From: Aquilaria yunnanensis
Lineage: Eukaryota; Streptophyta; Magnoliopsida; Malvales; Thymelaeaceae
Assembly (NCBI GenBank): GCA_039654915.1
Contig: CM077597.1
Location: 89,158,001 to 89,222,000, forward strand
Direction: 5' to 3'
DNA length: 64,000 nucleotides
Position 1 is the stretch's first letter, and each line of letters starts with the position of its first letter. Below the pieces are notes generated by a model that was given only the letters and a program-made list of their open reading frames with translations, was not told the origin of the DNA and did no database searches. Below, one piece after another: positions 15,260 through 35,559 of this stretch. Position numbers and translations under genes: made by a program.

Positions 15260-16285
15260 TGATAAGCTTACATTTGTTATATTTATTTTTTTTCGCATTT
15301 AGCATGTTTTAATGTGTTTTGAAACTTAAAGATCTATTTTGAGTATGTTTTATAGCTTAGAGTATATCTAGATTCAATTGATTAAAAGTGGATTTAATTT
15401 ACATTTGTACAAGTTTTAATTTGGTTGTGTTCTTCCAGGGTTTTGATAGATTGGCGATGTTTCAATAGAAAAATCATATCTTGAGCTACATAAATCAAAA
15501 TTGGGTGATTTTTAATTTATTAAAAAATTAACATCTAGAGCTACAAATCATATAAAGACCATGAAATCCAGTTCGCACGTTAAGGTAGTCAAATTCATCT
15601 TCAAAATCGCGATTTGTGCTTCATTGTTGGTTTAAAAGTAGTTGCGATATTTTAGGCATATCTTTGGTTGTAGATGTCTGTTTTATATTATTCAGGTGTT
15701 ATTTCTAAGCTAAGAAAAAGATCTACAACTTTCATGCTTTGAGTTTTGAGAAATAATAGCTATATCAAGATCAAATTTTAGCTCAAAGTTGCTACAGATG
15801 TTTTGGAATATTTCTTGGCTCATAACTTTAAAACCAGTTTTTATGTAGGTTAATTCCAAAGACCTCTAAACCATATGGGAGAAAATTTCAGCTCAAAGAT
15901 GCAATTCCCTTGGTTATATTAGGGCATTCTAGTTATTTTGAATCTTTTTTTTTGTATGAGGTAATTTTATAACAATATAAAAAGTTTAGGGAAGTTTTAT
16001 AAATTTTACCACAATAGGTTAATTTGTTTAGGTTTCTTTAAATAGAGGCTAGCAGCTGCCGCAGGCTCCTCTAGCTTCTAAAAACTCTCTTTCGTCTCTT
16101 TTCTTCTTTCTTTTCTTTTTGAAGATTTTTCTTGGCCATGTCTAGCTAATTTTTTTTATTCTTTATTAAAGGAAACTGAAATCTCGAATTCTTCAGTACT
16201 ATGAAATCAAAATTACTTTATTTATTCAATTAATACTTTGGATATTTGATGTTCTTCTATGATTAATTTCATGATTGTTTCGTTT
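15260..16285 (+). repeat. Athila-like left LTR, first part
   Basis: TGATAAGCTTACATTTG onward, parallel to 36845-37475 and 39186-39560 of the right LTR. It is cut at the CGTTT target site by the Ogre/Tat-like element and resumes at 32366. The position matching the right LTR's foldback insertion is intact here (AAGATGCAA, 15896-15904). Confidence 0.85.
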
Positions 16286-18597
16286 TGTTGACACCCAATT
16301 TCGTCCGACATTCATTAAAGAAAAAATTAATTAATTAATTAAATTAAAAATTAAAAAAAAAAAAGAAAATAAAAAAAATATATATATTATATATGTATTG
16401 ATAACAATTAGCTTAGGAGGGGGGCATTTTTTTGTTTTATAAAAAATAATAATAATAATAATAATAATATATATATCTGTATATGTGTATAAAAATAATG
16501 AATGAAATAAAAATGATTAATTAAAAAATAATAATAATAATATTAATTAAATAAAATATATTATCTTAGGGGAAGGCAGTAGACTCTTCTGGAGTCCTCT
16601 ATCAGAAAAAAAAATGATTAATTAAAAAATAATAATAATAATATTAATTAAATAAAATATATTATCTTAGGGGAGGGCAGTAGACTCTCCTGGAGTCCTC
16701 TATCAGAAAAAAAAATGATTAATTAAAATAATAATAATAATAATAATATTAATTAAATAAAATATATTATCTTAGGGGAAGGCAGTAGACTCTTCTGGAA
16801 TCCTCTATCAGCTTTTCAGCGGCCATAAAAGCAAAAAAAAGACTCTCTTCCGGAGGGAAAAAAAAACTCTCCTCTCTGCTCTGATCTTCCCCTCCGGCCC
16901 AGGTTCTCTCTTCCAGAACTCTCTCTCTCACATCTCTCTCTTTGGTCGCCTTCCACGAATCTTTTTTCTCTCCCCTTTGATAACTCTAACTCTCTCCTCT
17001 CCCGATTGAACCGTCTCACCTCGCTCAGCTGTTGTCGTTGATCTCCTCTTCTCGGACGCCTCGCCCTGGCCGCCATCGGCAGCCGCTTTTGTTGCCTCGC
17101 CGTTTATCTTCTCCCCCTAGACACCTTGCCGTAGCCGTAGCCGTCGTAAAGCTGTCGCCTTGCTCAGCCTTCTCTCTCTCTCTTCTCCCTCCCTGCTCTC
17201 GTCGTCTTCGACGCTTCAGGCCACCGTTTCTTCTCCTGTCACAGCCTCGACCAGCCGTCGCGTCGCCCACTTCAGCTTCCTCTCCACTCCCCTGTTGCCG
17301 ACGCTTCCGCGCCGTTCTCCCTCCGCCGACGCGTCCTTCACGCCTCACCTCCTGCTCTCCCCCTTCCTCCGGCCGCTGCTCCCCCTCTGCCGCCAGTCTC
17401 CTGCTCTCGCGTCCCGCCTCCCTGGTGCCATCGTTCTCTCGGTCGCAACCTCCCAGCACGAAGACGAAGAACAGATTTTGTTTTTGACTAAGTCAAAGAC
17501 TGTTCTTTTACTTTTTTTTGGTAAAATCCTTGTTTAGTCCTTTGCTTTCTTTGTTTTGTTCATTTAAGTCATTAACATATTTTATGTTGCCGATTAACCC
17601 CCGACAGCAAGATTTTCATTATTCATATTTTTCTTTGTTTTCTTTATTAATATTGGTTTGACCTTACATTAAATTTGATTATTAAGTTGATATAGGAGAA
17701 CAACATAGTATTGTGATTTGATATGTTTATTTATTTATCCTTGTTTTTAGAATAGTTTAATTTTAATTCTATTAGTGCATCTAATGTGTACCAAATTATT
17801 GGTTAAGAGCATTCAAATGTTTGCAAATCCGTTCTTAGTAGGTTTGATAAAATCCTAAGACGGATTATATCCATGTCCGGGTGGTCTGGCAAGATCCATG
17901 GTTTGGATATTAAAAATTAAAATTAAAATTAAATAACGAAACCCAGATCGTAAACCGACTTGTTGTTGCTTCGAATCTGATTTAAAAGTCCATAATTTTG
18001 GCATAATTCTTGTTTACCCCCTGAGTTATTTTTATTTTATCCAGTTAAGCCATTAATTTCATTTTATCTTATAAATCAGTCACGGACAATACTTTTTTTT
18101 TTAATTCTTTCTCTTTTTGTTTTTTGTTCATTTGATGATTTGGCCATGCATCAATTTAATTAATAAATTCACATAGGAATACAAGTTAGGATATCTATTT
18201 TTTTTTAATTTTTTTTAATTTTTTTTTATCTTAAAATCTTTGTAATTTTGATTGAATCTATACGATGCGTTTCAAAGATCAATTTTCGAGAATTCATTCT
18301 ACGCGGGTTTAATAAAATTACAGGATTGAGGAGAAAGTGGCAGCATCTGTCTATTTTCCTGGTTTAATTTTTTGTGCTCTTCTCCTTGGATATTGTTAGT
18401 CTTATTAAAATCCGCACATGAGATTGTATATAACCTTGATTTTGGATTGAAATCAGCTTGATATTTGGGTGCTTCTCTGGTTGAAGGCCACAAAGAACAA
18501 ATCGAAGAAGATGACTTGAGATGGTATTTACCTAACTTTTGGATTAATGACAAAAATGGATCCTTTAGATTACATTTGTGATAAATTAGGCCCTAAA

Positions 18598-18655
<58 letters not shown>

Positions 18656-19440
18656 TTTGGTCATTTATAGCCTAAATAATTACTAAATCGTTTGTTTGCC
18701 ATGAAAATTTTCTGCTTTGTGTACTTCGATCACTGATTTTACTTATTTTTTTTTTATGTTTGTTCAGTTCATTAAAGGCATCTATCAGCTTAGGAATTAA
18801 TATTAAGTATAATTATATAATTAGATTAGATAGACTTTTTAATAATTAATCTAAAAAATTAATTTGACATATTAAAAATAAAAATCACATTTTTGAAAAT
18901 TTCGGTCTATGTGGGCCATTAATAATAATTATATAACTAACAATTAATTAAAGTAATTTTCATATCCAGATGATCCGGCAGGATCTACGGTTTGGAAAAT
19001 ATTAACTTTTTTTTAACTAAATAAATTAAATAAATATAAAGATAAAAATCCATATTTACAATATGGATAAAATTCTTTAAAATTTCATCAAATTCCGTGT
19101 CCGGGTGACTCGGCAGAGTCCATGGTTCGGAATCAAATCTTCCGTGTCCAAATGACTCGGCAGAGTCCATGGTTCGGAAGTATAAAATTCTATACAAATT
19201 AACTTAAAAATCCACATTTCGACTAATTCAGTTAAAATTTCTAAATTAACTAAAAATTATTTAAAAGCAAAGTAACACAAAATTAAAATCAACTAAGGTG
19301 CCAATTTTGGGCGCTATAACAATATTGTTTTAGCGTAACCGTACTCCCGATCCCTGAACTCTCGCAGACCAATTTTAAGGTGACCAATCGACCTAAGAAA
19401 ACTGATTGGTGGCGACTCCAGAAAACCCGACGTTGCCACA
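16286..19440 (+). repeat. Ogre/Tat-like 5' LTR
   Basis: In order: an AT-rich start with an (AAT)n tract near 16445; three ~100-bp tandem units (about 16510-16811), each containing CTTAGGGGAAGGCAGTAGAC; a GC- and CT-rich block (16815-17460); AT-rich sequence; an (ATT)18 microsatellite (18600-18655); and four dispersed copies of a CCGGGTGACTCGGCAGAGTC-like motif (near 17877, 18965, 19100, 19147). It would hold the element's promoter and poly(A) site, but I cannot place either. Confidence 0.9.
16510..16811 (+). repeat. Three ~100-bp tandem units in the 5' LTR
   Basis: Each unit runs AATGATTAATTAA... to ...GAGTCCTCTATCAG. The same three units recur in the 3' LTR at about 29410-29711. Confidence 0.8.
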
Positions 19441-19443
19441 GCT

Positions 19444-19461
19444 TGGCGACTCCACTGGGGA
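19444..19461 (+). other. Ogre/Tat-like primer binding site
   Basis: TGGCGACTCCACTGGGGA, three bases after the 5' LTR; a site of this form (Arg-tRNA type) is usual for Ogre/Tat elements. Confidence 0.75.
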
Positions 19462-20385
19462 CCCTGGTTAGTGAGTCAAGCCTAAAAGTTGATTTATTTT
19501 GTTCTATTTTATTTATTTTTATGTGGATTTATATGTTATATTTACTTATTCTAAACATACATAATGCATTCACAAAATGAAGCTCTATACCCGAGCTTCC
19601 TCAAATCGAACACAATTCTTTCTAAGCGGAATTGGTGTTGTTGTCCTTGTGAGGCCATGGTCTCCAAGCCTTCACCAGTTTCAAAGTAGCAAAGTAGTGT
19701 ATTGCCTTCTGAGACGGTTAGTCTTTGCATGGGCCCACGAAAAGCTACGACTCGAATTAATCCATTCCTTACATTAACCCTAGAGGGTAAGGAATCGGGC
19801 CGTCACTATGATTTAGTGGCGGGATTCAGGAACTATCCCTTGCCTTTTTGATAAGCCACCTTATGCATATAGAACTCCCCACTTAACCATAGAACTGACC
19901 ATAGAATTTCTACCATTTTACCAACGCCATAAGCATATCCTTGTTATGCTGTGTTGTTACTCTACACTTTTCTTCGTATGGTTTTAACTTGTTTATCCAT
20001 AATACTTCATGAGTTGTTAATTACTATTTAACTTGTTAATAACCTTATTTTTCTTTTGTTATACTTCCGTTCTGTGCAATTATTCTTCATGCATCAAAAC
20101 CACGCATCAAATTATGCTAACTTTTTGGTCTTTTAATAATAACTAGAAGTCTTGAAGTTTCACAATAGTTGATAATCAAGCTCACTCATTGCATACATCT
20201 ATTACATCAATCACATGCATATAAAATCTGATAAAAATAATCTCATTGCATGTATTCCATTACATCAATCATGTGCATATAAATTTTGATAAAAAACATA
20301 ATCTCATTATGTATTGCATGCATCCATTGCATCAATCACATACATGTAGAGTCTAATAAAATAAATATTCCTTTAAAAAGGTAAA
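19462..20385 (+). other. Ogre/Tat-like 5' untranslated leader
   Basis: No coding region recognised. Imperfect ~60-base repeats containing CATTGCATGTATTCCATTACATC lie at about 20185-20345 (the repeated core TCATTGCAT...ATCACATGCAT). Confidence 0.4.
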
Positions 20386-20525
20386 ATTGGACCTCAACAC
20401 CGATATCTAACTCGGCTCCAAACAAGATTAATGGTAGAACAAACCGAAGGACGTCTCATAGATATAGAGTCCAAGATAGAAAATATGGCCGGAGCAATTC
20501 CCTCCTCATTACACAAAAAAAAATG
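20386..20525 (+). pseudogene. Possible gag N-terminal remnant
   Basis: A short reading segment contains TRLQTRLMVEQTEGRLIDIE followed by SKIENMAGAIPSS and then a stop at 20522-20524. A Thr-Arg-rich start followed by a Glu/Arg coiled-coil stretch is how many Ogre/Tat Gag proteins begin. No ATG is clearly in place and nothing Gag-like follows, so this is a relic at most. Confidence 0.3.
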
Positions 20526-23500
20526 AAATTCATTTTTTAAGGAAAGTTAATCACAGTCTTTGCTGAAGAAAGCATTCTGCTATCATCTATATCAATAGTA
20601 GCAAAGGCCAAGTGACCTTCTCTTCCAAGTTGGTGTGACCCAAATCCCAGATGTAACTGAAAAGTCTGTGGTGCTGAAACTCAAGGTCCAACAGTTGGTC
20701 GAGTCTAAGTTGCTAGGCCATGATGTGATTGGTAATTGAAAGTGAAGATTTTGAGCTGGAATTACATTAATTTTGGAAGGGCTCCAAGTCAGATCTGACC
20801 TAATAGTCCGCACACACTTTTGAATGACAGGGAATCCTTTGAATAAACTTGTATCTTTGAAAGCTTGCAAAAGTAATCTAATAGTAAAAATCTCCTAGAT
20901 TTAGTCCAGAATCTAGGGTGTAGTCTTTGTTAAATGGACACCTGCTATTCTTTTTCTGGTACAACAAAAAGATGTGATGCGTGCATTCTACTACTTTCCA
21001 TTTTTACACTCTTTGCCATTATACTATCCATTATTGTCATCACATTTTACTTTTTGACAACCGGTAATTCTTTTTGTTCTCCAACAAAAAGATATTATGT
21101 GTACATTCCACCACTTCTTACCAAAAATTCCGTTTTTACATCCATCTCTCACTCCTTTCCATTATACTATCCATTATTGTTATCATACTTTGCTTTCTAA
21201 ATGATATTACCCGTGGGTGAAAATAAAAAGTTAAGGGAGATTTAATAGTGGCGATCTTGAAAGTGTTGTCAAATCTAGTAAGAAGGATTTCATATGTTGC
21301 ACCCCAACTCTTAAAAAAAAAAAAAAAAATTCACAGTGGTTATCAACATCCTTGCAAGAAGTCCGGGATTAGCTTCCAAAGAAGTTAGCTCTCATATTAA
21401 GTGACTTCAGTGGCCTCCCAATTCTCACAAATGCTCAATACAAAAAAAAAATTCTCAGTTTTCCGCAACACAAATTCCAACAAAGGAAATAAGTTCATCC
21501 CTTCCATCAAAAGCCATTAAAGGAAAAAATCCAAAACAAAAAAAGAGACTGAGAGCAAACACAAGCAACTAAGGCCACTTGAATCATTTCACTTCAAGAG
21601 GGCTATGATCTCAGTTCTTTGCAACACAAACTCCGAAAAGAGAAATTCATCCCTTCCATCAAAAGACAACAAGGGAAAATTCAAAACCAAAAAGGACTGA
21701 GAACAAGCAAGAGCAAACAAGGCCACTTGAGTCATCTCACTTCAAGAGAGTTATCAAGTATGTCATCACCATAGCTCACAAAAAAAAAAAAAGGAAACAA
21801 AAAAAAAAAACAAAACAAAAAAGAAAAAAAAAAAAGGGCTCAAACTAGAGCAAAAGAAAAAAAAAAGAAAACAAGTGAGCTATGGATTCTAAACTGAAAA
21901 CCTGCAAAGGCGGTCTAGAAGACAAAAGCAACTTTCAAGCCAAGCATACATAAAGACCACGATAGTTGGGGGGCAACAGATGAGGTTTAACTTTCTGGAA
22001 AGAGTGGCAAGTTTGAGGTCATCACTATTGAGTTTTTCACCATAATCAAATTTGCTCACGAGTAGTATTAAAAGACCCTTCTTTCAAACCACTTAAACTT
22101 AACTTTCCTCAGACTTATCATCCTCATTCAGCTAAAAGACTATCATTGTGAAATATGTTTCTACCTTATTTAATACTGCTCACGAGTAGTATTAAAAGAC
22201 CATTCTTTCACACCACTTAAATTTAACTTTCCTCAGACCTAACATTCTCATTCAGTTAAAAGACTATCATTGTGAATCATGTTTCTACCTTATTTAATAC
22301 TGCTCACGAGTAGTATTAAAATACCCTTCTTTCACACCACTCAAACTTAACTTTACTCAGACCTAATATTTACCTCTTAATATTATTCTCATTCAGCTAA
22401 AAGACTGCCACAAAAAAAAAAACATTCAAACTTAACTTTCCTCACACCTAACAGTTACCTCTCGATATCATCCTCATTCAGCTAAAAGGCTATCCTTGTG
22501 AATCATGTTTATACCTTATTGCCTTGCACAGTTTATGTCTTCGAGTTGGAAAGGGAAGAATGGCAGGATATTTTAATTAAAAACAAAGACCGTAAATTAC
22601 TTTGTCAAGCTTTGCAAATTGATGAAAGTTTTTCTTTAAGGCCAAACCATTATTCATTAATGTGTGTAGACTTAAAAGTGAGGATATAGCTTGAGTCTTT
22701 CTTTAATAAGATGTGGTTCTTGTAAGAGAAATTTACGATCAAATGCCATCACAAAGGTCTAGAAATGCTCGACCTTCTGTTAAATTAAAGGCGAGATGAT
22801 ACCTTTTATCCACATAAATACCATATTCAGGGGAGCAAAGTAGTCTCTACGAAGCGTAAGAGGAGTACTGCCAACAAAGAAGTTTAATAGACAAGGGGGC
22901 AAGTCTTATGGATCAAAACATGAGTTCAAGGAAGAGCAATCATTCAGATTATAACATGGGAATAAGTAAGTGTCGGCACGGCCACAAGAAAATAGGCAAA
23001 GAGACATTGGAAGATAAGCCTTCGATGATATGAAATCCATAACAGGGACAATTGTCCAGAGAAGAATAAAGAGATTCAATGATAGTCCAAGAAGGCAATT
23101 ACAAAGAAGATCCAGTAAAACAAAGACATAAAGAACTAGATCCATACAAAAAAAAAGCCATTAGTTACACATGCTCTGCATTCATGCATTTCATATCATG
23201 CATACATAGCCTTTACATAACAAGGACCAAACGGGAATCACATTCACAGCACAGTTACAGCAGTATAAGCTGAGATTTCAATGTCATCAGCTCTTACCAA
23301 TCTATCACTGGATACACAGCTAATATGCGGGACCAACCCGCATCAGGAATTAAAGGATAAAGTAAACAATATTGTCAAAAGCCTGGCAATTGATTCAATA
23401 ATTGAGGCTACACCTGGAAGGACAGGATTGATGCCAGCTTAGCAGCATCCAAGATAAGAGATAGCTATGGTCAAAGATAAGGCAGACATCAAGAAATATT

Positions 23501-23632
23501 GTCGTTGAAACTTTGTCAAAAGCGGACAATGGATTCAATAATCGAGGACTGGATCGACGTCAGCTCGATGGAATATCCAAGATAAAAAATATCTATCACA
23601 TCAAAATGAAGTAGGATCTACTTTTCCGGTTA
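20526..23632 (+). other. Non-coding interior with several tandem duplications
   Basis: No recognisable protein. It contains a ~120-bp unit twice (about 20946-21190, core CAACAAAAAGAT), a ~156-bp unit twice (about 21454-21750, core CATCCCTTCCATCAAAAG), an A-rich tract (21779-21870), a 124-bp unit about 3.6 times (22054-22500, each starting GCTCACGAGTAGTATTAAAA) and a 141-bp unit twice (23374-23605, core GATTCAATAAT). Such stepwise local duplication is common in Ogre/Tat non-coding parts. Confidence 0.6.
22054..22500 (+). repeat. 124-bp tandem repeat, about 3.6 units
   Basis: Units begin at 22054, 22178 and 22302 with GCTCACGAGTAGTATTAAAA; a degenerate fourth unit runs to about 22500. Confidence 0.8.
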
Positions 23633-23732
23633 AACGGCGGATACGGTACTCCGTGACTCTCAAGTCGGTTCTCTCAGTTGCCCATAATAACTAATTCTTT
23701 CCTCTCTTCTTTCTTTTACTTCCCTCTAGAAA

Positions 23733-24281
23733 ATGGATCCTACCTTTTCCGCCTTGCGAAAGTATTTCCCTTCTCTCCCAATGAACATCCTCAAAAAGAT
23801 CTACCAAGTTCGCTGTGAATGATTAAGAGTTCTGATGCACAAAGGAATCCCTGAAGATGTGCGGTGGTTAATCGAAGCCAAGGTTCGTCTGGCAGGCGAA
23901 ATCCTAGAGGCATTTGTGTCTCACATGCCTGGTATAGGCAAAAGCTCTTATGCCAAAAAGCGAAGAGCGAAAAGGTTACAAGTCTGCCATAAATGTGGAC
24001 GGTGGACTTGTAATACTAAATATCGTTCTTTAGGGATGATCTCTGATAATCGAGAAGATAAAATACGATTCATTAAGAATGGCCTGAGTAAGGACTCGTT
24101 GGATGATATCCAATTGACTCTTGAGACGCATTCTTGTGGATCTGTGCAACGTGAACTTCTTGGTTTATGGAGCATTTTTCATGAAGAACGAAACCGTTAC
24201 AGTCCCGAAAATCTGACTGTAAATGACCCTGTTTGCCAGCTTGTAAGAAAACTGGATGGGAAGCAAATCCTCGACTCATAG
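23733..24281 (+). pseudogene. Cargo ORF 1: nucleic-acid-binding-like, broken
   Basis: First of three tandem paralogues of exactly 182 codons. The start MDPTFSALRKYFPSLP matches copies 2 and 3, but codon 30 is TGA (23820-23822), where the others have CGA (Arg), a single C-to-T change. The fourth cysteine of the C-x2-C-x4-C-x3-C cluster is Tyr (TKYRS instead of TKCRS). Downstream of the stop the frame is open to 24281 with no frameshift, so decay is recent. A ~75-base leader (23634-23712, ending CTCTCTTCT) is shared with copy 2. No TATA box is evident upstream of this copy. A shorter product from the ATG at 23835 is conceivable. See copy 2 for the functional reading. Confidence 0.7.
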
Positions 24282-24443
24282 AAGCCGTTAATGTCGTTAC
24301 TAGATGTAAAGCCAGTGGAAGATGTGAGTCACAGTCACAATTACTGTATATACAGTTTGTTATATTTGGAAAAGTTTGCATTTTCTTTTGACAGATGTAC
24401 ATGCTCCCCTAAGTGTAATCGACACGTTATCCCTTTTCATCAC

Positions 24444-24450
24444 TATAAAT
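24444..24450 (+). promoter_or_regulatory. TATA-like box before cargo ORF 2
   Basis: TATAAAT in the context TTTCATCACTATAAATG, shared with ORF 3 (25270) and, more loosely, the LOG-like ORF (26611). It is 127 bases before the ATG. Confidence 0.4.
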
Positions 24451-24570
24451 GCGTGTTCTTCCTTCTGATTAAGCAGCGGATAAGATACCTCGTGACTTCT
24501 AAAGTCGGTTATTCCAGTCTCCTACAATAACTGATTCATTTCCCTCTTCTCTCAAATTCTTCTCTCATCA

Positions 24571-25119
24571 ATGGATTCTACTCTTTCTGCACTGCGAAAA
24601 TACTTTCCTTCCCTTCCAATAAAAGTCCTTAAAAAGATCTACCTTGCTAGATGTGAAAGAATCAGAGTTTTTACATGCAAAGGCATTCCCGATAATGTGC
24701 AGTGGATAATTGAAGCTAAGGTCCGTTTGGCGGGTGAAGTTTCAGATGCATTTATGCCCCGCATGCCCGGTTTAGGTAAAAGCCGTTATGCCAAAAGGCG
24801 AAGAGCAAATAGACTAGGCGTGTGTTATAAATGTGGGCGATGGAATTGTAATACTAAATGTCGGTCTTTAGGATACATCTCCACAAATCGTGAAGATAAA
24901 AGAAAATTCATTAAGAATGGCCTGCGTAAGGAATCTCTGGAAGATATCCGAGAGACTCTTGAAACGCATTCTTGTGGAAAAGTGCAAGGTCAAATTGTCA
25001 AATTGTGGAGGACTTACCATAAAGAACGAGACCGTTATAGTCTTGGGAATCTGACTGTAAACGACCCTGTTTGCCAGCTTGTAAGAAAACTGGATGGAAA
25101 GCAAATTCTCAACTCATAG
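24571..25119 (+). CDS. Cargo ORF 2: cysteine-rich nucleic-acid-binding-like protein
   Basis: 182 residues, uninterrupted. Residues 1-60 are a likely helical region (SALRKYFPSLPIKVLKKIY). Residues 67-82 carry a glycine turn and basic stretch (GLGKSRYAKRRRANRL). Residues 85, 88, 93 and 97 form a compact C-x2-C-x4-C-x3-C cluster, and a basic segment NREDKRKFIKNGLRKE follows. The order of glycine turn, YAKxRRA, cysteine cluster and 'FI..G' resembles the small nucleic-acid-binding proteins of carlaviruses and relatives, some of which suppress RNA silencing. That is a motif-level judgement by eye; the cysteine spacing is not identical, and a host or retroelement origin is possible. The C-terminal ~80 residues (to VRKLDGKQILNS) are not recognised. 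Equal length and conserved motifs across copies suggest selection. Confidence 0.65.
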   Translation: MDSTLSALRKYFPSLPIKVLKKIYLARCERIRVFTCKGIPDNVQWIIEAKVRLAGEVSDAFMPRMPGLGKSRYAKRRRANRLGVCYKCGRWNCNTKCRSLGYISTNREDKRKFIKNGLRKESLEDIRETLETHSCGKVQGQIVKLWRTYHKERDRYSLGNLTVNDPVCQLVRKLDGKQILNS

Positions 25120-25269
25120 AAGCCGTTAATGCCGTTACTGGACATAAATCAGTGGAAGATGAGAGCCACAGTCATGATTGCTGTACATATAAGCTGTCAT
25201 TTGTCCTTTCTTTTGACAATAATGAACTTGCTTCTGCAAGTGTAATTAACGCATTATCCCTTTCATCAC

Positions 25270-25277
25270 TATAAATA
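25270..25277 (+). promoter_or_regulatory. TATA-like box before cargo ORF 3
   Basis: TATAAATA after TTATCCCTTTCATCAC, 66 bases before the ATG. Nearly the same block precedes ORF 2 and a related one precedes the LOG-like ORF. Confidence 0.45.
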
Positions 25278-25335
25278 TGTGTTAGTTATTTTCGTTTCCT
25301 ACAATCACTAATTTCTTTCTTTGCTTCCTTTATCA

Positions 25336-25884
25336 ATGGAGTCTTCTCTTTCCGCCCTACGAAAGTATTTTCCTTCCTTCCCAATAAATGTTCTTAAAAA
25401 GATTTATCAAGCTAGATGTGAACGATTCAGAGTATTTATGCACAAAGGCATTCCTGATAATGTGCGGCGGCTAATTGAAGCTAAGGTTCGTTCAGCTGGT
25501 GAAGTTCCAGATGCGTTCTTTCCCCGTATGCCCGGCTTTGGTAAAAGCGCTTATGCCAAAAAGAGAAGAGCAAAGAGGCTAGGCGTTTGTCATAATTGTG
25601 GATGGTGGATTTGCGGCAATAAATGTCGTTCTCCAGAAGTGATCACCAGAAATCGTAATGATAGAATAAGATTCATCAAGAATGGCTTACGTAAGGAATC
25701 TTTGGATGATATCCTATTAACTTTTGAAACACATTCTTGTGAAATAGTGCAATGGGAAATTATGGATTTATGGTGGACTTTCCGTAAAGAACAGGATCGT
25801 TACAGTCTTGGAAATCTGACTTTTAATGACCCTGTTTGCCAGTTTGTGAGAAAACTGGATGAGAAGCAAATCCTCGATTCGTAA
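25336..25884 (+). CDS. Cargo ORF 3: cysteine-rich nucleic-acid-binding-like protein
   Basis: 182 residues, uninterrupted, collinear with ORF 2 without any indel. The ATG at 25336 (MESSLSALRKYFPSFP) aligns with the starts of ORFs 1 and 2; an in-frame TTG upstream is ignored. The basic stretch GFGKSAYAKKRRAKRL and all four cysteines (C85, C88, C93, C97) are kept. The loop between them has changed (CGWWICGNKC), and the C-terminal part shows a Lys-to-Glu change (KLDEKQILDS). It is the third unit of a tandem series at ~0.8-kb spacing in which leader, ORF and tail were duplicated together. Its tail leads directly into an array of 87-bp repeats. Function is inferred as for ORF 2. Confidence 0.65.
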   Translation: MESSLSALRKYFPSFPINVLKKIYQARCERFRVFMHKGIPDNVRRLIEAKVRSAGEVPDAFFPRMPGFGKSAYAKKRRAKRLGVCHNCGWWICGNKCRSPEVITRNRNDRIRFIKNGLRKESLDDILLTFETHSCEIVQWEIMDLWWTFRKEQDRYSLGNLTFNDPVCQFVRKLDEKQILDS

Positions 25885-25923
25885 AAGGCATTGAAGCCGT
25901 CCCTGGATGTAAAACCAGTAGAA

Positions 25924-26575
25924 AACGTGAACTACGGTCATGACTACTGTACAGGCTAGTTGTCACTTTTCAAAATTTTTCCTTCTCTTCTGACAAATGA
26001 TGTACCTGCTCTTGACGTGATCCACAGTCACGACTACTGTACAGGCTAGTTGTCGTTTTTGAAAATTTTCCTTCTATTCTAAGAATAATGTACCTATTCC
26101 TGATGTGAGCAACAGTCACGATTACTGTACATGCTAGCTGTCGTTTTTGAAATTTTCTTCCCCTTTTGGTAATAATGTATCCACTCCTGACGTGAGCAAC
26201 AGTCACGATTACTGTACATGCTAGCTGTCGCTTTTGAAATTTTCCTCCCCTTTTGGTAATAATGTATCCACTCCTGACGTGAACCAAAGTCACGATTACT
26301 GTACATGCTAGCTGTCGCTTTTGAAATTTTCCTTCTCCTTTGGCAATAATGTACCCACTCCTGACACGGACTACTGTATATAGCTGCCACTTTTGAAATT
26401 TTCCTTCTCTTCCAACAATCACGTACCTACTCCTGACATAAGCTACAGTAGTGACTACTGTACATGCTAACAGCTATTTTGAAAATTTTCCTCCTCTTTT
26501 AACGATAGTGTACCCATACCTGACCAGAGTCATACTCGTGACTACTGTGAATAGCTGGCAATAATGTATCCATTC
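25924..26575 (+). repeat. 87-bp tandem array, eight units
   Basis: Units start near CCTGACGTGAGCAACAGTC and contain GTCACGATTACTGTACATGC; the best-conserved three start 87 bases apart (GTCACGATTACTG at 26115, 26202, 26289). Single related units follow ORF 1 (24323) and ORF 2 (25159), so the array grew from the ORF tail. CAGT...ACTG gives each a small dyad. Because 87 is a multiple of 3, a long antisense frame is open by chance. Confidence 0.85.
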
Positions 26576-26610
26576 TTGAAAATAAAATTATTGCCTTATC
26601 TCTTCATCTT

Positions 26611-26620
26611 TATAAATATA
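26611..26620 (+). promoter_or_regulatory. TATA-like box before the LOG-like ORF
   Basis: TATAAATATA 39 bases before the ATG, in a block (CTTATCTCTTCATCTTTATA) that resembles the leader of cargo ORF 3. Confidence 0.45.
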
Positions 26621-26658
26621 TCCTCTTTTCTTCTTTTCTCACATGGGTAAGGATAGGA

Positions 26659-27288
26659 ATGGAGAAAACCTCCACTCGTAAATCCCGAAGTATTTGTGTA
26701 TTTTCTGGAGCTTTTCCTGGAGAAGATGAAGAGTACTTAAAGGCAGCCAACCATTTGGGTAGTGTATTAGCTGAGCGAAAAATACACTTAGTTTATGGAG
26801 GAGGTAGTGTCGGATTAATGGGAGCTGTAGCATCAGCAGCATCTTTAGGAGGAAGCCAGGTTCTGGGTATTATCCCTGCATCTCTGAAATCGGTTTCTGG
26901 GGGCACAATTGGAGAAGAGCTAGTGGTTAAAAATCTGCAAGAGCGTTTGTTACAAATGCTTTTTAATGCTGATGCTTTTATCGCTCTACCAGGTGGCTTC
27001 GGCACATTAGGAGAAGTCTTCCAAATCGCTTCCATGGCCCAACTTAATTTGCATCAAAAACCCATTGGGCTGTTAAATGTTAACTATTTCTTCGCAGGTC
27101 TATTATCTTTTATGAATCGTGCTGTGAAGCAGAAGTTTATCCCTGAAGTGGCACGACGAATCATAATATCCGCAACAACTGCTGAAGAATTGCTAGATAA
27201 AATACAAGCTTTTGTTCCTGAACCAGATCCAGCAATGATTCAGATAGACTGGACACGACAGTCTTTCCCGACCAGTTCACTCCCATAA
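26659..27288 (+). CDS. LOG: LOG-like cytokinin riboside 5'-monophosphate phosphoribohydrolase, intronless
   Basis: 209 residues, close to the usual LOG length. LOG enzymes cleave cytokinin nucleotides to the active base plus ribose 5-phosphate, in cytosol and nucleus. Seen here: ICVFSGAF (12-19) opening the Rossmann-type fold, YGGGSVGLMG (46-55), an Arg in LQERLLQM (R96), and the signature PGGFGTLGE (111-119) matching PGGxGTxxE, followed by HQKPIGLLNV (132-141). Plant LOGs usually have TLEE here; the first Glu is Gly in this copy, and the HQRK-type segment before it is QERL. The phosphate-binding motif and final Glu are kept, so activity is possible but uncertain. Plant LOG genes normally have several introns; this frame has none and lies inside an LTR element, so it looks like a captured cDNA. 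No stop or frameshift is seen. Confidence 0.8.
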   Translation: MEKTSTRKSRSICVFSGAFPGEDEEYLKAANHLGSVLAERKIHLVYGGGSVGLMGAVASAASLGGSQVLGIIPASLKSVSGGTIGEELVVKNLQERLLQMLFNADAFIALPGGFGTLGEVFQIASMAQLNLHQKPIGLLNVNYFFAGLLSFMNRAVKQKFIPEVARRIIISATTAEELLDKIQAFVPEPDPAMIQIDWTRQSFPTSSLP

Positions 27289-27829
27289 TGGTCCTCTACT
27301 CACCCTGTTGAAGTATTGTGGAAGAAAGAAGCGATCTGATCCGTTTTTCTTATCCTTTAGTTTTATTATCAGCATTTTCTTTCGCGTTTCAGTTTTTCTT
27401 TTCAGGGAATTTCTTTTTTTATAAGATAGTTTCATCCATGCTGATATTAAAACTATAGGACAATGCCTTTAGGTTGGAATGGCTGAGTAAAGAGTAATTT
27501 TTGTTACTCTTGAGACGCATCCTATTAGGTATACTAGGCATGACATTTTGTGGTAACTAAGCTTCAACCTTTTGGATGACATATCTCTCAAGCGAATCTA
27601 TATTAGATGAACCTTGGATATTGATTCCAAACATCCGTTCCCTCTACATAATTTGTCAGTGTTATTATCATCGTCGAGATTCACTCATTTTATCGAAGTC
27701 TAAATTTTTGCACTCGCCTATCATGAAGATCCACACTTTCGAATAAAATTATTCCAATTTCAATTGCTTTTATATAAATTTCGCTCGAGGTCCTAAGGAA
27801 AGCTCCTTAGCCTCAAAATCAATTTTCAT
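27289..27829 (+). other. Non-coding region after the LOG-like ORF
   Basis: No coding region is recognised. It leads into the 3' minisatellites; the first GGTCCTAAGGAAAGCTCCTT at 27791 is a precursor-like variant of the downstream repeats. Confidence 0.4.
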
Positions 27830-28482
27830 CATCGGGGTTTTAAGGATGGAACCTTTGCCTCGAAAACAATCAATTTTCATCATCGGGGTTTTAAGGATGG
27901 AACCTTTGCCTCGAAATCAATCAATCAATCCGAGGTTTTAAGGATGAAACCTTTGCCTCGACATCAATCAATCAATTCGAGGTTTTAAGGATGGAACCTT
28001 TGCCTCGAGATCAATCAATCGTTGAGGTTTTAAGGATGGAACCTTTGCCTCGACATCAATCAATCAATCCGAGGTTTTAAGGATGGAACCTTTGCCTCGA
28101 GATCAATCAATCAATTCAAGGTTTTAAGGATGGAACCTTTGCCTCGACATCAATCAATCAATCCGGGGTTTTAAGGATGGAACCTTTGCCTCGAGATCAA
28201 TCAATCAATTCGAGGTTTTAAGGATGGAACCTTTGCCTCGACATCAATCAATCAATCCGAGGTTTTAAGGATGGAACCTTTGCCTTGAGATCAATCAATC
28301 AATTCGAGGTTTTAAGGATGGAACCTTTGCCTCGAAATCAATTAATCAATCCGAGGTTTTAAGGATGAAACCTTTGCCTCGGCATCAATCAATCAATCCG
28401 GGGTTTTAAGGATGGAACCTTTGCCTCGAGATCAATCAATCAATTCGAGGTTTTAAGGATGGAACCTTTGCCTCGACATCAA
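27830..28482 (+). repeat. ~46-bp minisatellite, about 14 units
   Basis: Each unit reads GAGGTTTTAAGGATGGAACC then TTTGCCTCGA and a CAATCAATCAAT spacer. GGTT/AACC and GAGG/CCTC can pair within a unit. Position before the polypurine tract fits the known hypervariable 3' region of Ogre/Tat elements. Confidence 0.9.
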
Positions 28483-28483
28483 T

Positions 28484-29130
28484 CAATTAGTCTATCTTAC
28501 AACGATAGGAGCTTTCCTATCGTTAGAGGTTCTAAGGACCTTTCCTTAAACCTCAAACAAACAATCAACCAGTCCATCTTACAACGACAGGAGCTTTCCT
28601 ATCGTTGAGGTTCTAAGGACCTTTCCTTAAACCTCAAACAATCAATCAATTAGTCCATCTTACAACGATAGGAGCTTTCCTATCGTTGAGGTTCTAAGGA
28701 CCTTTTCTTAAACCTCAAACAATCAATCAATTAGTCCATCTTACAATGATAGGAACTTTCCTATCGTTAGAAGCTCTAAGGAAGATTCCTTAACCTCTGA
28801 GTTTAGGCGACGAAAAGATTCTCGATGCCTACCTAAAGTCAGACGAAATTTGGTAACGACAGGAGCTTTCCTATCGTTGAGGTTCTAAAGACCTTTCCTT
28901 AAACCTCAAACAATCAATCAATTAGTCCATCTTACAACGATAGGAGCTTTCCTATCGTTGAGGTTCTAAGGACCTTTTCTTAAACCTCAAACAATCAATC
29001 AATTAGTCCATCTTACAACGATAGGAACTTTCCTATCGTTAGAAGCTCTAAGGAAGATTCCTTAACCTCTGAGTTTAGGCGACGAAAAGATTCTCGATGC
29101 CTACCTAAAGTCAGACGAAATTTGGTAACG
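28484..29130 (+). repeat. ~81-bp minisatellite with perfect hairpins, about 7 units
   Basis: Most units carry AACGATAGGA-GCTT-TCCTATCGTT, a perfect 10-bp stem with a 4-base loop, then GGTTCTAAGGACCTTTCC. A ~270-bp higher-order unit is duplicated (the segment with GGCGACGAAAAGATTCTCG occurs near 28807 and 29077). Confidence 0.9.
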
Positions 29131-29162
29131 ACTTTGCATGCGTCATCTCCCATGAGGCATGC

Positions 29163-29175
29163 AAAGGGGGGCAGC
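29163..29175 (+). other. Ogre/Tat-like polypurine tract
   Basis: AAAGGGGGGCAGC immediately before the 3' LTR. Confidence 0.85.
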
Positions 29176-29333
29176 TGTTGACACCCAATTTCGTCCGACA
29201 TTCATTAAAGAAAAAATTAATTAATTAATTAAATTAAAAATTAAAAAAAAAAAAAAGAAAATAAAAAAAATATATATATTATATATGTATTGATAACAAT
29301 TAGCTTAGGAGGGGGGCATTTTTTTGTTTTATA

Positions 29334-29370
<37 letters not shown>

Positions 29371-31505
29371 TATATCTGTATATGTGTATAAAAAAAATGA
29401 ATGAAATAAAAATGATTAATTAAAAAATAATAATAATAATATTAATTAAATAAAATATATTATCTTAGGGGAAGGCAGTAGACTCTTCTGGAGTCCTCTA
29501 TCAGAAAAAAAAAATGATTAATTAAAAAATAATAATAATAATATTAATTAAATAAAATATATTATCTTAGGGGAGGGCAGTAGACTCTTCTGGAGTCCTC
29601 TATCAGAAAAAAAAATGATTAATTAAAATAATAATAATAATATTATTATTAATTAAATAAAATATATTATCTTAGGGGAAGGCAGTAGACTCTTCTGGAA
29701 TCCTCTATCAGCTTTTCAGCGGCCATAAAAGCAAAAAAAAGACTCTCTTCCGGAGGGAAAAAAAAACTCTCCTCTCTGCTCTGATCTTCCCCTCCGGCCC
29801 AGGTTCTCTCTTCCAGAACTCTCTCTCTCACATCTCTCTCTTTGGTCGCCTTCCATGAATCTTTTTTCTCTCCCCTTTGATAACTCTAACTCTCTCCTCT
29901 CCCGATTGAACCGTCTCACCTCGCTCAGCTGTTGTCGTTGATCTCCTCTTCTCGGACGCCTCGCCTTGGCCGCCATCGGCAGCCGCCTTTGTTGCCTCGC
30001 CGTTTATCTTCTCCCCCTAGACACCTTGCCGTAGCCGTAGCCGTCGTAAAGCTGTCGCCTTGCTCAGCCTTCTCTCTCTCTCTTCTCCCTCCCTGCTCTC
30101 GTCGTCTTCGACGCTTCAGGCCACCGTTTCTTCCCCTGTCACAGCCTCGACCAGCCGTCGCGTCGCCCACTTCAGCTTCCTCTCCACTCCCCTGTTGCCG
30201 ACGCTTCCGCGCCGTTCTCCCTCCGCCGACGCGTCCTTCACGCCTCACCTCCTGCTCTCCCCCTTCCTCCGGCCGCTGCTCCCCCTCTGCCGCCAGTCTC
30301 CTGCTCTCGCGTCCCGCCTCCCTGGCGCCATCGTTCTCTCGGTCGCAACCTCCCAGCACGAAGACGAAGAACAGATTTTGTTTTTGACTAAGTCAAAGAC
30401 TGTTCTTTTACTTTTTTTTGGTAAAATCCTTGTTTAGTCCTTTGCTTTCTTTGTTTTGTTCATTTAAGTCATTAACATATTTTATGTTGCCGATTAACCC
30501 CCGACAGCAAGATTTTCATTATTCATATTTTTCTTTGTTTTCTTTATTAATATTGGTTTGACCTTACATTAAATTTGATTATTAAGTTGATATAGGAGAA
30601 CAACATAGTATTGTGATTTGATATGTTTATTTATTTATCCTTGTTTTTAGAATAGTTTAATTTTAATTCTATTAGTGCATCTAATGTGTACCAAATTATT
30701 GGTTAAGAGCATTCAAATGTTTGCAAATCCGTTCTTAGTAGGTTTGATAAAATCCTAAGACGGATTATATCCATGTCCGGGTGGTCTGGCAAGATCCATG
30801 GTTTGGATATTAAAAATTAAAATTAAAATTAAAATTAAATAACGAAACCCAGATCGTAAACCGACTTGTTGTTGCTTCGAATCTGATTTAAAAGTCCATA
30901 ATTTTGGCATAATTCTTGTTTACCCCCTGAGTTATTTTTATTTTATCCAGTTAAGCCATTAATTTCATTTTATCTTATAAATCAGTCACGGACAATACTT
31001 TTTTTTTTAATTCTTTCTCTTTTTGTTTTTTGTTCATTTGATGATTTGTCCATGAATCAATTTAATTAATAAATTCACATAGGAATACAAGTTAGGATAT
31101 CTATTTTTTTTTTTATTTTTTTTAATTTTTTTTTTATCTTAAAATCTTTGTAATTTTGATTGAATCTATACGATGCGTTTCAAAGATCAATTTTCGAGAA
31201 TTCATTCTACGCGGGTTTAATAAAATTACAGGATTGAGGAGAAAGTGGCAGCATCTGTCTATTTTCCTGGTTTAATTTTTTGTGCTCTTCTCCTTGGATA
31301 TTGTTAGTCTTATTAAAATCCGCACATGAGATTGTATATAACCTTGATTTTGGATTGAAATCAGCTTGATATTTGGGTGCTTCTCTGGTTGAAGGCCACA
31401 AAGAACAAATCGAAGAAGATGATTTGAGATGGTATTTACCTAACTTTTGGATTAATGACAAAAATGGATCCTCTAGATTACATTTGTGATAAATTAGGCC
31501 CTAAA

Positions 31506-31575
<70 letters not shown>

Positions 31576-32360
31576 TTTGGTCATTTATAGCCTAAATAAT
31601 TACTAAATCATTTGTTTGCCATGAAAATTTTCTGCTTTGTGTACTTCGATCACTGATTTTACTTATTTTTTTTTTATGTTTGTTCAGTTCATTAAAGGCA
31701 TCTATCAGCTTAGGAATTAATATTAAGTATAATTATATAATTAGATTAGATAGACTTTTTAATAATTAATCTAAAAAATTAATTTGACATATTAAAAATA
31801 AAAATCACATTTTTGAAAATTTCGGTCTATGTGGGCCATTAATAATAATTATATAACTAACAATTAATTAAAGTAATTTTCATATCCGGATGATCCGGCG
31901 GGATCTACGGTTTGGAAAATATTAACTTTTTTTTAACTAAATAAATTAAATAAATATAAAGATAAAAATCCATATTTACAATATGGATAAAATTCTTTAA
32001 AATTTCGTCAAATTCCGTGTCCGGGTGACTCGGCAGAGTCCATGGTTCGGAATCAAATCTTCCGTGTCCAAATGACTCGGCAGAGTCCATGGTTCGGAAG
32101 TATAAAATTCTATACAAATTAACTTAAAAATCCACATTTCGACTAATTCAGTTAAAATTTCTAAATTAACTGAAAATTATTTAAAAGCAAAGTAAAACAA
32201 AATTAAAATCAACTAAGGTGCCAATTTTGGGCGCTATAACAATATTGTTTTAGTGTAACCGTACTCCCGATCCCCAAACTCTCGCAGACCAATTTTAAGG
32301 TGACCAATCGACCTAAGAAAACTGATTGGTGGCGACTCCAGAAAACCCGACGTTGCCACA
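29176..32360 (+). repeat. Ogre/Tat-like 3' LTR
   Basis: Nearly identical to 16286-19440. Differences are scattered single bases (mostly C/T or A/G) plus longer (AAT)n and (ATT)n tracts here: about 22 ATT units at 31508-31575 against 18 in the 5' LTR. The GC-rich block at 29715-30360 keeps many CpG dinucleotides. Confidence 0.9.
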
Positions 32361-32365
32361 CGTTT

Positions 32366-33038
32366 ATAGCTAGGAGGTTGACTAGTTATTTTTTGAATTC
32401 AATTTATTGCTGGGTTAAAAATTAAATTCATAATTGTTTGGTTTCTCTAATTTGTGAAGCAACTAGGGTTTATTGATTTATCACGTTAAGAATCATTACA
32501 TCTTAGGGAGAATATTTAACTAAATTAAATACAACCGCTTGTGTTTGTGTTCTTTAATTTCATCGATTTCTCTAATTTTTAATGTAATTGTTAAATTAAA
32601 TCGAAGCACTTGTCTTAGGTTGTTTAGCAGTTAAGGTTAATTAAATCATCTATTTTCTGATTAACTACAATTAAGGAGAGGCAGAAAGATAGCTCTAATG
32701 ATAAATATTCAAAGTTTAAATTGATTTATCTATATATCGATGATCAGTTATAGAAATTCGATGGTAAATGTTGACTGATGTCAAGATTTGTATTCTTTAT
32801 TATTTCATTTTATTTCTTACTCGATAAATTTCTTAATTTTTATTTTTTTATTTTTAATTTTATTGTTGATTGCAAACAATCGCCCCTTAATTTTTTATTT
32901 TAATTTTCTGTTAGGAAGCTTTCAAATAAAAATTTCTCTTGGAATTCAACCTAAATTTCACCGCTGTAATACAAATTTATTTATTCTGAGCTATTTGTGA
33001 AACTAGAATTATTTTTGACAATTTCGACAATTGACCCA
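32366..33038 (+). repeat. Athila-like left LTR, second part
   Basis: It continues the left LTR after the CGTTT duplication and is parallel to about 39566-40242 in the right LTR; it ends GACCCA at 33038. Confidence 0.85.
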
Positions 33039-33044
33039 AAAATT

Positions 33045-33062
33045 TGGCGCCCTTATCAGGGA
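33045..33062 (+). other. Athila-like primer binding site
   Basis: TGGCGCCCTTATCAGGGA, a mutated form of the Asp-tRNA-type site usual in this lineage. Confidence 0.75.
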
Positions 33063-33267: not shown

Positions 33268-35559
33268 ATGGTGGCACAAAGAACATTGAGGGAGTTGGCA
33301 ACTCCCGATGTTGTCCAGCAACCTTTATACATTGATTTTCTTGATATTGAGATAGCTTTTGAATTAAAATTTAGCTTGATTCATTTATTGCCTACGTTTT
33401 GAAGACTTGTAAATGAGGACCTCCATAAACACTTAAAGTAATTTCATTTAGTTTGCTCGTCCTTGAGGCAACAGGGAGTTACTAAAGAATAGAGTAAGTT
33501 GAGAGTCTTCCTATTCACATTGGTAGACAAGGCAAAGGACTGACTGTACTACTTTTCCTCTGGTTCAATCTGAACCTAGAATGACTTAAAGAGAAAATTT
33601 TTAGAAAATTTTTTTCCAGCTTCAAAAGCTGAAACTATTCATAAGGAAATCAACGGGATTCGTCAGTACAATGGAGAAATGCTATATGAGCACTAGGAGA
33701 GATTCAACCAACTATGTACTAGTTACCCACACCACTAGATTTCTAACCAATTGTTGTTGTAGTATTTCTATGAAGGGCTACTGTTTATGGATCAAAGTAT
33801 GTTGGATGCTACAAGTGGATGAGCACTTGTAGAAAAGACGCTCGAAGAAGCAAATGACCTGATTTCTAAAATAATAGCTAACGTATAGTAGTTTGGGAGA
33901 ATGGTAGACTATGTGCCAAAGAAGGTAAATGAGGTAAGAACTTCTAGTATTGAGGCTCTTTCTGAACTAACCTCTTTTGTTAAACAAGTTGCTTTGGGAT
34001 AGGTTCAAAATTCTAGGGTTTATGGTATTTGCTCTACTCAGTAACACCTTAAAGACTCGTGTCCACAGCTTTAGGAGGATACAACACCTTAGATAAATGT
34101 GATAAACGAGTTTGTTAATCAACGAAGAAGGTATGACTCCTATGCTAATCAATATAACCCTAGTTGGAGAAACCACCCGAATCTGAGATATGGGCAGCCA
34201 TATAACCAGCCATCGTACCCATCTGCCAGTTACAATAAACCAGCCTCTATACCATAAAAGCAAGCATCGAGTTCAGGTATGGCTTTGGAGGACATTGTGA
34301 AAACTTTACCATTAACACTCAAATGTTTCAATATGAAATAAGGGCTAGCATAAAAAACTTAAGGGAACCAAATTTCACAACTAAGAGCCTCGCTAAACAA
34401 AATTAAAGCTGAAAAATAAAGACTATCATCTCAAGATAAAATCAACCCGAGAAAGCATGTTAATGTCGTAACCCTTTGAGGTGGAAAAGAAGTACAAACC
34501 GCCACATAAAAAAATGACAACACTTAAAAAAGAATAAGATGGGCCAAAACTAGCAACTTTTGATACACCAATTGAGGAGGTAAGTAATAAGTCAAATTAT
34601 TCAAAGTCAAAAATTCTGATTCCACATCTTTTTCTGGCAGGTTGGAAAAATAAAAAAAAATAAGAAATAAAGTAGGAACTTCTTGAGATTTTTAAGAAGG
34701 TTGAAATTAACATACCCTTACTAGATGCAATCGAGTAAATGTCTCGGTATGCTAAGTTTATGAAGGAGTTATACACCAACAAAAAAAAGCTGCCAATTGA
34801 TAAGACAATCAAAGTTAGTGAGAATATGTCAACGACAATCTAAAGGAAGTTGTCTTAGAAGTGTAAAGGCCTTGGTATGTTTACTATACCATGCATAATA
34901 GGTAATTTTATGGTGGAAAAAACTATGTTAGATTTAGGAGCTTCAATTAATGTTGTGCCATATTCCATATATGCTTCTTTGAAACTTGGACCTTTGAATA
35001 AAGTTAGTGTGATGATTCACTTAGTTGATAGATCTATGTCTATCCTAGGGGCATAGTTGAGGGTTTTTTTATGTTAGTAAATGACTTAATTTTTTTTAAT
35101 GATTTTTGCATACTTGACATAAAGAACAATAACCTTACTGCTCCTATTTTGTTAAGAAGACCATTTTTAAAGACATCCAAGACCAAGATTGATGTGGATA
35201 CTAGCATTCTCACAATGAAATTTGATGGAAAAATTACATAATTCAATGTTTTTGACACACTGAAGGAAACTAACAATGATAACTCTGTTTTTTTTGTTGA
35301 AAAAATTGACACTTTGATGCAGAATGATTCAGGAAAAAATTCTGAAAACCAAGCAAAGTTGGCACAAAAAGGTAAGAAAGAAATGGCCAAGTTACAGCAA
35401 GAGCATGAGATGTCATTTGTAGTTGGAAAAAAGGTATTTCTCAGACACAGGAAAAGATGGAAAGTGTTGCCTATCAAGTTTAAAAGTTTAAAAACAAACA
35501 AAGTGTTCAACATTGAGATGCATTTTGGGAGGCAACCCAAGTATGGTTTTGTGCCATAA
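33268..35559 (+). pseudogene. Degenerate gag-protease of the Athila-like element
   Basis: The Gag start VAQRTLRELATPDVVQQPL is followed by recognisable Gag blocks (HLVCSSLRQQGV, GEMLYEH*ERFNQLC, YFYEGLLFMDQSMLDA) and then a protease segment with MLDLGASINVVPYS, in which DLGAS is the aspartic protease active-site motif (about 34931). The frame is broken by many stops. Several are where Trp or Gln is expected (TGG to TAG/TGA, CAG/CAA to TAG/TAA), and a few frameshifts follow. The last open part ends at 35559. No reverse transcriptase, RNase H or integrase follows before the 3' LTR, so the parent element was already a gag-protease-only derivative or lost pol. It cannot make protein. Confidence 0.8.

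Follow-up and report, generated by a model that had tools for sequence, protein, structure and literature searches.

The large non-autonomous long terminal repeat (LTR) elements known as LARD have intact LTRs, a primer-binding site (PBS) and a polypurine tract (PPT), lack pol, are mobilised in trans, and normally carry no coding cargo. A YgdH (LONELY GUY, LOG) domain was reported in Ty3/gypsy elements of Citrus and Populus (PMC9289625, citing Steinbauerova 2011), and the same source gives a tRNA-Arg PBS for Ogre elements. The Ogre/Tat clade is defined by the phylogeny of reverse transcriptase (RT), ribonuclease H (RNase H), and integrase and by an additional RNase H of the archaeal type (PMC6317226). 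Viral cysteine-rich proteins (CRPs) act as silencing suppressors (PMC12172455, PMC3689765), and a carlavirus CRP acts as a plant transcription factor (PMC12172455). Here I describe a 16-kb LTR element at positions 16286-32360 of a window of 64,000 nt (the whole stretch of DNA analysed: Aquilaria yunnanensis, GCA_039654915.1, CM077597.1 positions 89,158,001-89,222,000, forward strand). The kind is known, that of additional-open-reading-frame (ORF) and non-autonomous LTR elements, while the cargo was unexpected: two open genes and one broken gene for a nucleic-acid-binding protein (NABP), and one open LOG gene. I favour, with moderate confidence, the reading that this is a non-autonomous Ty3/gypsy retrotransposon of the Ogre/Tat/Athila group, that its cargo module comes from autonomous elements, that it has been moved in trans, and that NABP has an anti-silencing role and LOG a cytokinin role.

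The NABP and LOG genes

The cargo and its surroundings are arranged as follows (L001 is a related DNA record of 3330 bp).

23622 to 24367, plus strand: NABP unit 1, including its conserved leader and trailer; the ORF frame is 23733-24281 and has a stop at codon 30; identity to L001 73.8% over 774 columns
24571 to 25119, plus strand: NABP unit 2; 182 amino acids, uninterrupted
25336 to 25884, plus strand: NABP unit 3; 182 amino acids, uninterrupted
25925 to 26365, plus strand: 87-bp tandem array (repeat scan), by eye similar to the trailer found after the NABP ORFs
26536 to 26645, plus strand: LOG leader with TATAAATA
26659 to 27288, plus strand: LOG-like ORF; 209 amino acids, uninterrupted
27506 to 27532, plus strand: short stretch that may be left from another NABP copy (shuffle tests)

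The initial annotation had noted three tandem cysteine-rich ORFs of a non-retroviral kind. Three units of 182 codons do start at 23733, 24571, and 25336, although the first is broken by its stop codon, and an identity can now be given to them. In Pfam searches, for which the part after the stop was used in unit 1, units 2, 3, and 1 matched Viral_NABP with E-values of 4.5e-7, 8.2e-6, and 8.6e-6 and Carla_C4 with E-values of 4.6e-5, 8.8e-5, and 8e-7, respectively. All these matches lie above the curated Pfam cut-offs, and no other family did so for the NABP ORFs. Judged by these profiles, the three ORFs are homologues of the nucleic-acid-binding proteins and silencing suppressors of flexiviruses (carlaviruses and relatives). 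The proteins of the three units differ from one another by 28-32%, and the ratios of nonsynonymous to synonymous substitution rates (dN/dS) are 0.28, 0.21, and 0.30. Thus, the units diverged under purifying selection.

A database search gave 116 NABP relatives at an E-value of 0.001 or better, out of 151 candidates. Many of them are exactly 182 amino acids long, and length and motifs are conserved across an alignment of 67 rows. The precomputed annotations contain Carla_C4 in 115 of the 116 (P0114 is the exception) and in many of them Viral_NABP as well, and a loose pattern finds a basic motif before the cysteines in 102. All relatives with an organism name are from plants (Xanthoceras, Acer, Rhamnella, Orobanche, Parasponia, and Citrus), and a separate short-profile search added Striga. 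In the short-profile protein search (589 matches at an E-value of 10 or better), no named virus was among the best 120 matches. In IMG/VR, a protein scan, an alignment scan, and two DNA patterns yielded no viral NABP relatives, and a PDB sequence search gave nothing credible (one match, at an E-value of 0.86). Clusters at 90% identity contain up to 109 member sequences (P0082). A tree was built from 90 rows, namely L001, the three units, and the 86 relatives left after 30 of the 116 had been dropped by length. In it, the window units form one supported set (100/95) with P0001, P0002, and P0057. P0001 is 96% identical to unit 1, P0002 82% to unit 3, and P0057 80% to unit 2. Since P0001 is the partner of unit 1 and P0002 that of unit 3, the tree indicates that the multiplication of NABP is older than this insertion and that related copies exist elsewhere.

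NABP2, NABP3, and LOG are each preceded by a similar leader with a TATA-like box. No shuffled sequence out of 300 matched as well as the NABP2 and NABP3 leaders match each other or as the NABP3 and LOG leaders do, while the NABP2-LOG match is less clear (7 of 300). The NABP1 leader showed no match beyond chance to the leaders of NABP2, NABP3, and LOG (63, 247, and 200 of 300 shuffles). Separate promoters for NABP2, NABP3, and LOG are plausible from these leader matches. The candidate remnant at 27506-27532 was equalled by none of 200 shuffles when compared with L001 and with unit 1 and by 4 of 200 when compared with unit 2. Unit 3 had no match there, and its best match, elsewhere, was equalled by 172 of 200 shuffles.

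The LOG-like ORF, which the initial annotation had described as intronless, is uninterrupted. It matches Pfam Lysine_decarbox with an E-value of 7.6e-33 and passes the cut-off of TIGR00730 (151.6 bits; cut-off 96.35), while its score of 102.7 bits is below the cut-off of 300 for the NCBIfam equivalog CtkRMPhLog, a model that serves bacterial and archaeal annotation. The motif PGGxGTxxE and the Arg preceding it are active-site features of LOG. The window LOG has both, the motif in the form PGGFGTLGE, and the motif is kept in 107 of 120 listed relatives. These relatives are the best 120 of 7742 matches (P0117-P0236), hence a set chosen for closeness, and P0117 is 86% identical to the window LOG. 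In a midpoint-rooted tree of the window LOG, 116 of the best 120 matches (4 were dropped by length), AtLOG3, and AtLOG8, the window LOG and its relatives (117 rows) form a branch apart from the two Arabidopsis rows, which are the only outgroup (100/100, branch length 0.66). Reevesia gene names occur in 23 of the 120 listed relatives and point to 15 chromosomes, as is expected of mobile copies. EAR repressor motifs have the form LxLxL. Such a sequence stands at the C-terminus, followed by at most two residues, in 99 of the 120 listed relatives and elsewhere in the protein in one, and a basic stretch precedes it in 95 of the 99. This C-terminal tail looks like a nuclear one of the EAR type.

A probable cargo module in other elements

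In L001, a 496-aa ORF with the integrase H2C2 and rve domains ends at 1594, and a NABP ORF in the sense direction starts at 1799. The integrase is of the Ty3/gypsy type and lies about 0.2 kb upstream of NABP. It was found that window positions 23622-24367 align with L001 positions 1665-2435, leader and trailer included. In a Rhamnella gene model (P0070), NABP is joined to an integrase end that shares 70% identity with its L001 counterpart over 111 aa, while P0079 (Rhamnella) and P0110 (Citrus) each have NABP and LOG within one gene model. P0014 with P0136 (8723) and P0012 with P0149 (4511) are probably NABP-LOG pairs on shared contigs, judged by their coinciding DNA lengths; shorter coinciding lengths among the NABP and LOG records, such as 1386, are perhaps due to chance. 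In P0097 (Orobanche), a stretch that by eye is protease-like is joined to NABP.

Since NABP stands beside an integrase in L001 and P0070 and beside LOG in P0079 and P0110, these records point to an old module of autonomous elements. NABP, at least sometimes together with LOG, is likely to belong to the additional ORFs that pol-bearing elements carry. The cargo is not limited to this copy; relatives of the NABP and LOG ORFs occur in many other records. The initial annotation had further proposed a gene-carrying element. The insertion is recent, its non-retroviral ORFs are open, and no pol was found, but the cargo was probably first captured by an element other than this one. I take the L001 integrase to be Athila-like. 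If both this assignment and the Ogre/Tat-like PBS of the 16-kb element hold, the module crossed between clades.

Two further observations concern L001. By eye, a splice-acceptor-like sequence was noticed at 1631-1661, where a pyrimidine-rich run precedes CTGCAG (1656-1661) and the conserved NABP leader begins. L001 also has a polypurine-type motif, which at first seemed to recur after the window LOG; the alignment did not bear this out.

Structure, age, and insertion of the element

The structural features of the 16-kb element are listed below.

16281 to 16285, no strand: left copy of the target-site duplication CGTTT (sequence and joined-flank alignment)
16286 to 19440, plus strand: 5′ LTR, 3155 bp
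19444 to 19462, plus strand: PBS-like TGGCGACTCCACTGGGGAC
19463 to 23621, plus strand: internal region with short tandem repeats and without a recognised coding domain (repeat and Pfam scans)
27832 to 29132, plus strand: 47-bp, 81-bp, and 272-bp tandem arrays upstream of the PPT (repeat scan)
29163 to 29171, plus strand: PPT AAAGGGGGG, 4 nt before the 3′ LTR
29176 to 32360, plus strand: 3′ LTR, 3185 bp
32361 to 32365, no strand: right copy of the target-site duplication CGTTT (sequence and joined-flank alignment)

The 5-bp CGTTT flanks, the near-identical LTRs of 3.2 kb, the primer site, the PPT, and the several tandem arrays of the initial annotation were all found again in the sequence or by the repeat scan. 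Two LTRs, a target duplication, a PBS, and a PPT, by which an LTR retrotransposon is recognised, are thus all present in 16286-32360. The LTR ends are TG...CA. The two LTRs agree at 3129 of 3155 aligned sites (99.2%), with 16 transitions, 10 transversions, and 6 gaps, which corresponds to a Kimura two-parameter (K2P) distance of 0.0083. Plant substitution rates are about 0.7-1.3e-8 per site per year. From the K2P distance and such rates, the insertion is roughly 0.3-0.6 million years old.

A search for pol was performed on the stop-to-stop ORFs of at least 45 aa that overlap the internal region (n = 90). Of these, 81 were scanned against Pfam; of the other nine, two lie on the minus strand at the edge of the LTR and seven belong to the 47-bp array. 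RT, RNase H, gag, and protease were absent from the 21 Pfam families found at an E-value of 0.1 or better. The convincing families are Viral_NABP and Carla_C4 (three ORFs each) and Lysine_decarbox with LDcluster4 (one ORF). The remaining 17 have one ORF each, the best being Ig_RSC4 (2.2e-4) and Integrase_Zn (0.009), and are weak or at chance level over 81 scans. Integrase_Zn is the sole retroviral-type match among them and is at chance level. A tblastn search of the window with the integrase of a related element gave no match. In the scanned ORFs, the gag, protease, RT, RNase H, and integrase of an autonomous Ty3/gypsy element were thus not found, in agreement with the initial annotation as to RT, RNase H, and integrase. 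Since the element has open non-retroviral ORFs and no pol was found, it is probably non-autonomous.

The label Ogre/Tat is based on the PBS and the long LTRs only. I presume that the PBS TGGCGACTCCACTGGGGAC is of the tRNA-Arg type and resembles that of Ogre/Tat elements. The window has no tRNA gene with which it could be compared, and a literature search with its letters gave no retrotransposon title among the matches listed.

The 16-kb element lies inside the 5′ LTR of an older one.

15896 to 40242, plus strand: older host element; LTR parts 15896-16285 and 32363-33038, other LTR 39177-40242

When the flanks of the 16-kb element are joined over one CGTTT, they align in a single piece to 39177-40242 (894 of 1071 columns identical, 13 gap columns). 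The flanks are therefore the two parts of the older LTR, and the uninterrupted alignment to its partner independently confirms a precise insertion. The LTRs of the older element (about 1.07 kb) are 83.8% identical over 1059 sites; the 16-kb element is much younger. The older element is possibly pol-less itself. It has a PBS-like TGGCGCC at 33045, near 34859-35334 a stretch that looks protease-like by eye and has a 31% tblastn match to P0097, and at 35729-35806 a 79-column match to the region 3′ of NABP in L001. Directly before its 3′ LTR, nested inverted repeats at 37476-39176 have arms of 77-221 nt that are 84-88% complementary, resembling a foldback element. Elsewhere in the window, the related ORFs 9001-9453 and 13704-14273 encode proline-rich repeats with units of the PELPKHEVP type and lie in repeated blocks that have diverged.

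Alternative explanations and known systems

In the favoured reading, the proteins of a full-length relative would copy and integrate the 16-kb element by means of its LTRs, PBS, and PPT. Autonomous elements would carry the NABP-then-LOG module as additional ORFs downstream of pol, and NABP would have become triplicated in the 16-kb element, with NABP2, NABP3, and LOG placed behind the similar TATA-bearing leaders. NABP may bind nucleic acid and weaken RNA silencing or reprogram transcription, as reported for the viral homologues. LOG may activate cytokinin locally and favour dividing cells. In most of the listed LOG relatives, the basic EAR-like tail would contact TOPLESS-type co-repressors in the nucleus.

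Several results weigh against this reading. The NABP zinc finger, CX2CX4CX3C in 96 of the 116 relatives and in units 2 and 3, differs from the viral one, whose spacing extends to 12; the viral pattern CX2CX9-12CX4C was found in none of the 116. The published spacing of a viral CRP is CX2CX9CX4C (PMC3689765). The predicted structure of NABP is poor (pTM 0.28), and a BFVD search with this weak model gave 35 matches with low TM-scores, none at an E-value of 0.001 or better; 12 of these weak matches bear the name RNA silencing suppressor or nucleic-acid-binding protein, and ranks 1-7 are by name plant-virus RNA silencing suppressors. The cytokinin activity of the whole LOG branch is unsure because the RKAEM of AtLOG3, which is RLLQM in the window LOG, survives in no more than 3 of the 120 listed LOG relatives. 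In L001, the sole related DNA that was read, the 1 kb following NABP contains no LOG ORF. This plant-like retroelement DNA is moreover in a record labelled Candidatus Nomurabacteria, a bacterial metagenome-assembled genome; assembly contamination is likely.

The cargo genes may also be decaying passengers in this copy, as unit 1 has lost one zinc-finger cysteine besides gaining its stop, and the window LOG lacks the LxLxL tail of most of its listed relatives. A general form of this idea, in which an autonomous element once captured NABP and LOG, pol was deleted in this copy, and both genes now persist without a function, is conceivable but rather doubtful. Gene capture by plant elements is documented (PMC7264820), and 13 of the 120 listed LOG relatives have no PGGxGTxxE. 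On the other hand, the low dN/dS among the NABP units (0.21-0.30) speaks for function over most of their history, and so does the conservation of NABP length and motifs and of the C-terminal tail in the LOG relatives. It is unlikely that the module of the autonomous elements serves mainly nuclear transcriptional control, NABP being a transcription factor of the zinc-finger type and the LOG with its EAR tail a bridge to co-repressors, instead of silencing suppression and cytokinin activation. The tail frequency among the listed LOGs and the reported activity of the carlavirus CRP would suit such a module, whereas the window LOG is tailless and the EAR function of the tail is presumptive.

An origin of the block as an endogenous betaflexivirus fragment that lies beside retroelement parts by chance is very improbable. 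It would account for the finding that the NABP ORFs exceed the Pfam cut-offs with viral families only, and a betaflexivirus replicase-like sequence is reported from the cucumber genome (PMC3136472). Nevertheless, no other viral gene family stood out nearby in the Pfam scan of internal ORFs, NABP adjoins integrase or LOG in other records, the clusters are large, and the leader and trailer are conserved with L001, whose integrase-NABP contig largely refutes a chance neighbourhood. LOG does belong to a host enzyme family, and one could suppose that LOG and NABP are ordinary host genes between the placed LTRs or were transduced once in this copy. This too has very little probability, in view of the separate branch of the window LOG and its listed relatives, the Reevesia gene names that point to 15 chromosomes, and the close relatives of each cargo gene (P0001, P0057, P0002, and P0117).

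A broader proposal can be made tentatively, and I regard it as possible rather than probable. A branch of flowering-plant Ty3/gypsy elements would have a conserved two-gene cassette for host manipulation, composed of a homologue of the flexivirus suppressor and an EAR-tailed LOG for cytokinin activation and co-repressor recruitment. The suppressor would have passed from retroelements to RNA viruses or the reverse, and elements lacking pol would carry the cassette as their only genes, paying their way by protecting the autonomous partner. To my knowledge, whether plant retrotransposons have RNA-silencing suppressors of their own, as plant RNA viruses do, is open for most lineages. The present element offers named, conserved, and testable genes, a viral-suppressor homologue under purifying selection and a homologue of a cytokinin enzyme, as well as a possible source or sink of flexivirus suppressor genes. 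The only genes recognised in this element, which appears to lack pol, may be helpers, and it suggests that some plant jumping genes may carry tools that act on the host. Surveys of extra ORFs can overlook NABP; one took extra ORFs of at least 250 codons only (PMC6317226), and another started from RT (PMC9289625). The initial annotation knew of no described family with such gene content. LOG is already known from the published Citrus and Populus elements (PMC9289625); for NABP, a literature search that left most subscription papers outside found no report in retrotransposons.

Like the 16-kb element, the Citrus and Populus elements have a LOG-type extra domain inside a plant gypsy element. They were found via RT, which was not found here, and the available part of the source mentions no NABP, triplication, or EAR-like tail (PMC9289625). 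Carlavirus-type CRP/NABP proteins (PF01623, PF05515) likewise have a basic box followed by a cysteine cluster. They are 69-133 aa in length (the 12 named among the BFVD matches, three of them fragments), in contrast to the 182 aa, the CX2CX4CX3C finger, and the retroelement-borne state seen here. The anti-silencing proteins of the Vandal family are also extra proteins encoded by a transposon, in that case a DNA transposon (PMC11728184); NABP may likewise counter silencing. The structure of the 16-kb element is that of LARD, from which it differs by its coding cargo. The Phalaenopsis AlkB elements are large and Ogre-like, as the 16-kb element would be if its Ogre/Tat label holds, and have an extra ORF of a kind known from alpha- and betaflexiviruses; their PBS is of the tRNA-Arg type, as the PBS here may be. 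They have gag, pol, and a demethylase ORF, while the 16-kb element has NABP and LOG and no pol that was found (PMC9289625).

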